Below, piece by piece: positions 4,739 to 62,700 of a DNA stretch of 64,000 bases. A program made the translations under genes and the position numbers. This stretch comes from Marinifilum flexuosum (GTDB lineage: Bacteria; Bacteroidota; Bacteroidia; Bacteroidales; Marinifilaceae), in NCBI RefSeq assembly GCF_003610555.1, contig NZ_RAPQ01000008.1, forward strand, positions 2,286,490 through 2,350,489, written 5' to 3'. How positions within the stretch are numbered: the first letter of the stretch is position 1; every line of letters begins with the position of its first letter. The notes below the pieces were generated by a model. It saw only the letters and a program-made list of their open reading frames with translations. It had not been told where the DNA came from and ran no database searches.

Positions 4739-5067
4739 ATAAAAAACGATTATAAATTGTCTGATATTGATGACATCGAGCTTATGATAGCCTCAACACG
4801 ATTGAAATGAAGTTTTGATCGATTAAAATTCGCCAAACAGGCTTTATATCATTCACAAAAGAATAAAAAGTAGTTTAACAGGTTTGCTAAGTTTTGAATA
4901 AATGTTCCCAATGTATTCAACACGATTTAAACTGTTGGAAAAGATATGATAATGCTCTCGCAGAAATGTAAAGGCAAATTTGCTGCAAAAAAGATCTCTC
5001 GATGATTTGTAATCAACCAAAATCAGTTGTATGAGTAGGAAGTTCGTCAATGCCCATAATTTTCTCT
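4739..5067. other. non-coding gap, no gene recognised
   Basis: About 330 bases between the lyase and the lactonase. A 65-codon minus-strand frame (4853-5050) crosses it, but the translation matches nothing I know and has no convincing start context. I see no repeat, tRNA or strong terminator here, only a promoter-like element at its right end. Confidence 0.5.
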
Positions 5068-30977: not shown

Positions 30978-31045
30978 CTCAATTGCCAAGAAAACTCATG
31001 AAAGACTCAAATGAATTGCAATAGCAGAGAAAATACTCATGAAAT

Positions 31046-31333
31046 GATCGTTTTTGTGCAAATATGAATGTTTCAAGAGAGGAAATCTGCATATTTGTGC
31101 AAATACCTGCATTGAAATAAAATAAATTGATGTTTTTGTGCAAAAACATGAATTGAAAGACAAGAAATGAGTGATTTTCCAACAAAAACGAGTATTTCAA
31201 ATGAGTAAATCATCATATTTGCACAAATACGGCCTTTTCCAGAGGTGAAACGCTCATATTTGTACAAATATGGCTTTTGAAAGAGGTGAAAAGCTTGTAT
31301 TTGTGCGAATACAAGGACTTAAAATAATTCAAC
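31046..31333. repeat. array of seven dyad-centred units with 41-bp period
   Basis: Seven units start at 31046, 31087, 31128, 31169, 31211, 31252 and 31293. Six are exactly 41 bases and the fourth is 42. Each has a palindromic core like CATATTTGTGCAAATATG; in unit six (31255-31272) it is a perfect 18-bp palindrome with TAC in the centre. The rest is a purine-rich spacer such as TTTGAAAGAGGTGAAA. The period is not a multiple of three, so it is not coding. Units vary, so it is old or selected for pattern. Confidence 0.88.
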
Positions 31334-31443
31334 GCCTCTTTTAGCGCTGCTTTTGATATTTAAAATAAAATTAATAGCGTATTTGTCTTAAATATACTCA
31401 TCTAAAGAGTTGATACAGTCAATTAACACACAAGAATCTCGCT

Positions 31444-31551
31444 AGTCCTGATTTGTAATCAGGACTCATGGTGTAAAGAATTTACAATTCGATTTTTGAG
31501 GATTAAAAATCCCAAACCCGAAACCTGTAAATTGAAAATTCACAGGAGCAG
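31444..31551 (+). repeat. dispersed multi-hairpin repeat, copy A
   Basis: About 107 bases with consecutive hairpins: AGTCCTGA...TCAGGACT, GAATTTACAATTC, GGATTAAAAATCC and CCTGTAAATT...AATTCACAGG followed by AGCAG. Copies B and C share the same order at 35180-35287 and 62569-62674, all in the same orientation. In the first stem, A has AGTCC/GGACT where B and C have AGCCC/GGGCT, so both arms change together. Confidence 0.85.
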
Positions 31552-53121: not shown

Positions 53122-53140
53122 TTTGTGGTGAATTCCGTTA

Positions 53141-53212
53141 TACGATTAATTTCGTAGATAAAATTATACGAAAGATTTCGTAATACAAAATATTAGTACG
53201 ATAAATTTCGTA
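53141..53212 (-). promoter_or_regulatory. three BlaI-type operator dyads
   Basis: TACGATTAATTTCGTA (53141-53156), TACGAAAGATTTCGTA (53167-53182) and TACGATAAATTTCGTA (53197-53212) share TACGA...TTTCGTA. All lie 20-91 bases upstream of the blaI start codon. BlaI-family proteins bind such short dyads; negative autoregulation is inferred. Confidence 0.88.
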
Positions 53213-53449
53213 GAAAGCCCTGTTTTTTCGTTTTTTTAACATTTGGATAATTTCTATAGATTCTTTATTTAAAACTTTTTACCCTTTACTTCCATCTTTT
53301 TTTTTCGTATTTTAATAGTTCCCCCTCTTAGTTGTTAAAGTGGGATCGAAGTGAGAAAAGAAAAGGAATAAAACTCAATCGGCATGACCGATTAAAGGCG
53401 ATAGAGCCTTATGCGGATTGCAAATTTTAAACCATAGAACTAGAACGCT
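53213..53449. other. divergent intergenic region with a two-hairpin leader of ybaK
   Basis: Two adjacent hairpins precede the YbaK gene by about 40 bases: AATCGG/CCGATT (53377-53393, loop CATGA) and AAGGC/GCCTT (53395-53410, loop GATAGA). A purine-rich stretch (53341-53370) lies before them. I do not recognise a known riboswitch. No gene is supported. Confidence 0.5.
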
Positions 53450-61893: not shown

Positions 61894-62208
61894 ACTTTGT
61901 GTTTTAAAAATAATTATTTAACAATTGTTAAGTTAATAAAACTTGCTTGTCGTAAGAACAGGTTAGCTGTTGAATTTTAAAATTTATAATCGTTTTAAAT
62001 AGTATGTTAAGAGATATTGATGTTTAAAATAGTTCTGTGTAGTATTAATGAGCTTATAAACATGGGTATTGAAATCTCTTGTATTGCCTGAGTGCACAGG
62101 AGTATATAGTTTTATAGTAAGTTTGAGAAGGGGGATGATTTACCGTTAAATGATGAACTTTTAATGCGAAGTAAGTGAGGTCATACCTAGGGTGTGTATG
62201 ACATAAAT

Positions 62209-62485
62209 GTAGGAAAAGATGAGCTGAACACGGAAATATATGAAGCTGACGTAGGAAAAGCTCATCTGAACATAGGAAAATATGAACTTGACCCTAATTT
62301 TTGAGATATTTTTGTGGAAATGGATGTCATATTCTTACAAAAATATGATGTGAACTTACCCAAAATGGACCAAAAAATGCGTTGATGTGATTCCGACGCG
62401 CGTCAGGCTCATCTTTTCCTACGTTTGTCTCAGGCAAACATGCGTTCAGATCAAGTAAACCTAGGTCAGCGTCACATCTACCTAG
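62209..62485. repeat. array of 21-bp units, first direct then inverted
   Basis: Direct units start at 62209, 62230, 62251 and 62272, with exact 21-base spacing. They are of the type (G)TAGGAAAA-n5-CTGAAC. Weaker in-phase units follow at 62314 and 62335. Inverted units are contiguous at 62402-62422, 62423-62443 (weak), 62444-62464 and 62465-62485. On the minus strand the first starts GTAGGAAAAGATGAGC and ends CTGAC, and the third ends GATCTGAAC. Unit one (62209-62223) and 62408-62422 are exact reverse complements over 15 bases. Confidence 0.85.
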
Positions 62486-62568
62486 GAATGGAACTCATCT
62501 ATGCGCGTAGGGGAGAGGGTGACGCATGAAAGTATCTTATTACTATGGACAATGTTCATACCCTTGCT

Positions 62569-62674
62569 AGCCCTGATTTGCAATCAGGGCTCATGGCGTT
62601 TAGAATTTAAATTCGATTTTGAGGATTGGAAATCCCAAACTTGAAACCTGTGAATTACAAATTCACAGAAGCAG
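62569..62674 (+). repeat. dispersed multi-hairpin repeat, copy C
   Basis: Same order as copies A and B: AGCCCTGA/TCAGGGCT, GAATTTAAATTC, GGATTGGAAATCC and CCTGTGAATT/AATTCACAG then AAGCAG. It is in the plus orientation, like A and B, and lies downstream of the DUF819 gene on the minus strand. Confidence 0.85.
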
Positions 62675-62700
62675 GAAATTGTCATTGGCGTTAGTCAATA

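Follow-up and report, generated by a model that had tools for sequence, protein, structure and literature searches.

Helically phased intergenic arrays in Marinifilum: a 320-base stretch of 21-base units, forward then backward, and the class it belongs to

An intergenic stretch of 320 bases in Marinifilum flexuosum is built of 21-base units, each two turns of DNA long, set first forward and then backward. It lies at positions 62188-62506 of the window, the 64,000-nucleotide stretch of DNA that was analysed. The element is one of two copies and belongs to a genome-wide class of intergenic arrays that have their geometry in common and not their sequence. The existence of this class is much better supported than its function.

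The array divides into fifteen successive 21-bp frames. Five direct units (62188 to 62292) lead into a weaker in-phase centre and then into five inverted units, which read backward from 62506 to 62402 and are followed by a weaker sixth at 62401-62381. These features, and an unrelated array elsewhere in the window, are as follows.

31020-31400, plus strand: unrelated array of like geometric class with a 41-bp period and palindromes such as GTATTTGTGCAAATAC and GTTTTTGTGCAAAAAC
62188-62208, plus strand: outer direct unit, in phase; starts the stretch common to copies a and b (from about 62183)
62209-62292, plus strand: four direct 21-bp units of GTAGGAAAAGATGAGCTGAAC type, starting at 62209, 62230, 62251 and 62272 in exact 21-bp steps
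62291-62306, plus strand: ACCCTAATTTTTGAGA, unchanged in 7 of 7 copies
62314-62355, plus strand: two weaker direct units in phase, starting at 62314 and 62335
62381-62401, minus strand: weaker inverted unit, in phase
62402-62485, minus strand: four inverted 21-bp units of GTAGGAAAAGATGAGCCTGAC type
62486-62506, minus strand: outer inverted unit; identity between copies a and b is high to about 62509, then weaker and patchy to about 62540

A sequence-only reading of the window had described the four contiguous direct units, the weaker in-phase units up to 62355 and the four opposite-strand units at 62402-62485. All were recovered, and one more in-phase unit was found on each outer side. That reading had also allowed that the whole might be only a short tandem repeat. 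The top three autocorrelation lags over 62209-62485 were however 21, 42 and 63, and the identity at lag 21 (0.44 vs 0.26 in Markov shuffles) was reached at any lag by none of 2000 shuffles. At lag 21 the left arm alone was not significant (P = 0.35; its lags 42 and 63 were higher) and the right arm alone was borderline (P = 0.03), indicating that the strength of the periodicity comes from the whole array. Tandem Repeats Finder, run on the window, did not report it. An inverted match of 33 nt (82% complementary) was found together with a perfect 12-mer, their axes 42 apart, and the inverted matches share the 21-bp register of the direct units. In the alignment of seven copies, no axes other than those spaced by exactly 21 columns had a Watson-Crick fraction above 0.36 (0.36-0.51). 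The array is more than a short tandem repeat, and its proposed two-turn phasing is supported.

The A-tracts are also in phase, as had been suggested, with an AA/TT power of 25 at 10.5 bp where about 1 is expected by chance. The accompanying idea that such phasing bends the DNA did not extend to a general principle: over 34 arrays the 10.5-bp AA/TT harmonic had no clear advantage over other harmonics, and general DNA bending was rejected as the explanation of the class. A promoter and terminator scan inside the array gave chance-level results only, with no terminator-like site in the region.

A nucleotide search of the window's own genome (G000; 5.17 Mb in 16 contigs), as the sequence-only reading had advised, found a second full copy at G000:C1:824969-825300. 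This copy b is 78% identical to the array in the window (copy a) over 332 bp, in a gap-free alignment with 70 substitutions and no indels. Beyond copy b, the same genome gave only chance-level pieces. Copy a lies between a gene for a 118-aa protein and one for a 388-aa membrane protein, both on the minus strand, and translations of the neighbours also gave FecI/FecR-like genes; copy b lies upstream of hisS. Both copies occur at matching gene neighbourhoods in two other Marinifilum species. A pattern scan of genome contigs found copy a in M. breve JC075 as well, and no match outside Marinifilum. In Marinifilum D714 (L026 8240-9172) a 310-aa gene adjoins copy a, with no counterpart there in the other two species. 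The hisS site holds a short spacer in G003, a single short palindrome in G005 and an unrelated array of 41-bp units in G004, and at locus a G004 carries a 42-bp (2 x 21) array of GTAGGAAAAGGGAATCGATTA / GTAGCAAGAATGAATGGGTAA.

The spacing of the units is conserved. Orthologous copies showed 212 pairwise substitutions and no indels, against 631 substitutions and 124 indels in the flanks and neighbouring intergenic DNA at these loci. Being pairwise, the counts lack independence, and the flank indel figure is inflated by gappy, poorly aligned stretches. In the three flanks adjoining the elements alone there were 297 substitutions, and with 23 indels these too were well above zero. Substitution was also slower in the array than in the flanks. 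Invariance among the seven copies depended on position in the 21-bp unit (permutation P = 0.008; 21 was the best of periods 15-29) and was strongest at the A-tract, at TGA and at an A near the unit end. In related copies of other array families some indels were whole units (21, 41), and some comparisons were indel-free inside the array. Part of this lack of indels may be due to the arrays being young and rapidly copied.

The wider class was surveyed by local autocorrelation of intergenic gaps in 864 kb of the own genome, window included, and 400 kb of G004, with simple open reading frames as gene calls. Over this 1.26 Mb of Marinifilum, sampled as stretches mostly from one contig, 33 of 51 intergenic periodicities fell at 2, 4, 6 or 8 helical turns (lags 21, 41-42, 62-63 and 82-84; P = 9e-14). 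Which lags count as helical was decided once an initial 400 kb of G000 and 400 kb of G004 had been surveyed; a further 400 kb of G000 and stretches of G016 and G027, taken later, showed the same lags. The two-turn period fitted to 28 Marinifilum arrays was 20.3-21.4 bp except for one at 22.2, with a median of 21.0 and an interquartile range of 20.6-21.0. By extrapolation from about 20 arrays per 800 kb, the own genome would hold somewhat over a hundred. In a sister genus of the same family (G016) 5 of 6 periodicities were at helical lags, and a second genome of that genus had two 41-bp arrays. G010 and G034 showed no excess at two-turn lags; G034 (L087-L106) favours lag 11 and G012 (L180, L181) has two 44-bp (2 x 22) arrays. 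These 11-bp and 44-bp intergenic arrays, in other genera of the family, are also near whole helical turns.

Within the class the motif is specific to each array (TCTGAGTTA, TAGGCTATGG, TCCAAGACA, GGAAAACTTCAACCGAGC and others). The array at 31 kb, whose 41-bp period had been noted as close to twice 21, is among the 33 at helical lags; it is of like geometry and unrelated in sequence. In some 41-bp arrays two palindromes alternate about 20.5 bp apart, for example TTCAGACGCTCTGAA and TGCCACAAATGGCA, and in many arrays a number of inverted axes share a register. By eye, a conserved core and a variable spacer can be made out within arrays. Genome searches for further copies covered three of the other arrays, each queried singly. 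Dispersed copies of the TCTGAGTTA family keep the direct-then-inverted order, so the layout seen at 62188-62506 recurs with a different motif.

Several other repeats were seen alongside these arrays. In the window, a weaker intergenic 41-bp periodicity at 4764-4963 (z 4.2) is perhaps a further class member, and an intergenic 26-bp tandem array at 53138-53214 is off the two-turn multiples. Arrays of 23 and 46 bp in G004 (L067-L086) form a second period class in Marinifilum. A repeat with small palindromes of differing stems (CCTGATTTGCAATCAGG, GGATTGGAAATCC, GTGAATTACAAATTCAC) stands beside both window arrays, at 62565-62690 and about 31430-31480, and twice in G001:C47; it has the look of a REP-like family of hairpins distinct from the arrays. 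In G004 and G002 the site of the 98-kb array is occupied by an acetyltransferase-like gene in place of the array (L173, L174 vs L051 18150-18880).

The arrays are concentrated between convergent genes. Helical arrays were present in 18 of 60 convergent gaps, and in 20 of 396 gaps of other kinds (odds ratio 7.6, P = 1e-7). Those in tandem gaps tended to lie closer to the end of the upstream gene (median about 170 bp) than to the next start (264 bp).

We compared the class with known repeat systems. Iteron arrays of plasmid and phage origins consist of direct units of about 18-22 bp in helical phase, some with inverted copies, and the arrays described here resemble them in both respects. They differ in being chromosomal, with two to four copies per family and many unrelated motifs in one genome, and no replication initiator gene was found among the translated neighbours of copy a or copy b. 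TAACTGA heptamer repeats of Beggiatoaceae, Cyanobacteria and some Bacteroidetes are likewise abundant intergenic direct repeats, of unknown function (PMC4679880). They consist however of a single invariant heptamer that frequently precedes start codons directly (PMC4679880), and lack the two-turn spacing of variable motifs. REP/BIME arrays (GTAG- and CGTC-tagged) are intergenic, dispersed, alternating in orientation and enriched between convergent and unidirectional genes (PMC3733652). The Marinifilum arrays are also intergenic, dispersed and of alternating orientation, and enriched between convergent genes. A role in supercoiling via gyrase has been proposed for REP/BIME, and REPs have a conserved tagged hairpin sequence in common, with G:T pairs in their stems that point to RNA (PMC3733652). 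By contrast, in Marinifilum the sequence differs per array, G:T pairs are not in excess and the two-turn spacing is constant. GTAG occurs in some units of copy a and is not retained in copy b, and the motifs of other arrays are unrelated; as the defining tagged hairpin is absent, the arrays are not members of the BIME family. Literature searches, mainly of journals outside subscription, on intergenic arrays with helical spacing and on repeats in Marinifilum returned nothing relevant, and an earlier description may exist. The earlier statement that no known element type explains the array thus holds within the scope of our literature and Rfam searches. The class is apparently undescribed; no described family combines varying sequence with a common geometry.

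We have established the geometry, register, spacing conservation, dispersal and location of these arrays. A spacing common to unrelated sequences, inversion in register and resistance to indels together suggest that some factor reads double-stranded DNA by its helix face. Our favoured reading, held tentatively and at somewhat less than even chances, is a phased protein-binding scaffold at gene ends, BIME/REP-like in action, with both the binding and the mechanism predicted. Each array would be a row of putative protein contact sites on double-stranded DNA, one dyad-symmetric module per two helical turns (21 bp), a spacing that would put every module on one side of the DNA. Arrays of this kind, which occur in Marinifilum and in one or more sister genera of its family, have the geometry in common (two-turn period mostly 20.3-21.4 bp) and not the sequence. 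A protein or protein complex may bind them cooperatively and form a compact nucleoprotein structure at gene ends, mostly convergent ones. Such a structure may buffer transcription-driven supercoiling or insulate adjacent genes, as is thought for REP/BIME arrays. Against this, the array at 62188-62506 is itself not in a convergent gap, and tolerated insertions would give the same enrichment there. The main puzzle is the array-specific motif, as a single sequence-specific protein would not explain motifs that vary from array to array in one genome. Units might turn over family by family while a protein of low sequence specificity binds them, or each family might have a cognate protein of its own; either would fit the variety.

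The main rival to the scaffold is that the arrays are non-autonomous, MITE-like elements, which we consider unlikely. Multi-site transposon ends (Tn7, Mu, Tn5053) carry sites of about 20-22 bp, whose orientation is direct at one end and inverted at the opposite one; the direct units would be one such end and the inverted units the other, each motif family having had its own, now absent, recombinase. Dispersed families of two to four copies, with different motifs and a common direct-then-inverted layout, are what this would produce, as are arrays present at some orthologous sites and missing or replaced at others, and convergent gaps would be safe landing sites. However, the arrays have no internal genes, run to as many as 18 units and include 41-bp palindrome arrays unlike a pair of ends. 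Neither a clean empty site nor a target-site duplication was readable, as the flanks have diverged too far at hisS and the 98k locus; at the latter G001 has a shorter array and not an empty site. The own genome has only two full copies of the array, and nucleotide searches of it and of phages and plasmids found neither a larger relative nor a related autonomous element. A phage or plasmid origin was itself rejected, no match being found in either. The mobile-element explanation thus accounts for dispersal and motif families, but with no readable target duplications and no partners found.

Neutral minisatellites are a rather improbable source of the class. Here slippage or template switching, with a preference for whole helical turns, would enlarge local palindromic seeds, which would then be copied elsewhere and decay without function. 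Motifs are indeed locus-specific, indels of whole units do occur, and the unit of the G004 array at the hisS site resembles the single short palindrome of G005 there, as if expanded in place. Neutral decay is nevertheless hard to reconcile with zero indels at 212 substitutions, with substitution slower than in the flanks, with conservation that depends on the 21-bp phase, or with a conserved core beside a variable spacer in place of uniform change. We know of no slippage rule that yields steps of 20.5-21 bp. Minisatellites therefore account for local expansion and not for the phase rules.

An RNA element would have the array transcribed as a 3' UTR or small RNA, with a long hairpin or string of hairpins that protects or ends transcripts; we judge this quite improbable. 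The large hairpin foreseen in the sequence-only reading can form, with good RNA folding scores on both strands (z -3.4 on plus, -5.0 on minus), as any such symmetry would give. Arrays do lie near gene ends, a few pairs show compensating changes and true small palindromes make up some arrays. RNA hairpins read off one strand are expected to favour G:T mismatches over A:C. On the main axis of the seven copies these numbered 101 and 112, and in other arrays 390 and 391 (convergent) and 372 and 341 (tandem). From this balance, the symmetry is best taken to belong to the DNA double helix and not to an RNA hairpin. With several registers equivalent as well, the large hairpin is probably a by-product of DNA symmetry. 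A single RNA hairpin was rejected, with double changes in only 4 of 83 consensus pairs and a covariation term of -0.05 in addition to the missing G:T excess. The lack of a terminator-like site in the region and an Rfam search that matched no family also tell against an RNA element.

That the array is the remnant of a heptad-repeat gene (21 bp being seven codons, one frame being open through both arms and the left arm reading as VGKDELN-like heptads) is extremely improbable and largely refuted by the codon-position test, in which substitutions were equal over the three positions with no third-position excess, so that the array is not a gene, while class lags of 41, 62 or 82, not multiples of 3 and found in half of the class, rule out a coding reason.

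Taken together, our results suggest, with rather less than even confidence, that Marinifilaceae genomes may contain around a hundred intergenic elements whose identity lies in their geometry and not in their sequence: dyad modules of two turns, self-similar within an array and unrelated between arrays, renewed or replaced at gene ends. Either a protein machine would read helical phase and internal self-similarity, or a copying process would lay down DNA in whole-turn steps. Dispersed bacterial repeats have so far been recognised by sequence, and a class defined by spacing and symmetry only would escape repeat finders, as the array did here. If true, this would mean that DNA geometry is sensed by a system that organises the chromosome or acts at transcription ends, or that there is a mechanism of duplication in whole helical turns, and either possibility is testable in culturable marine bacteria.
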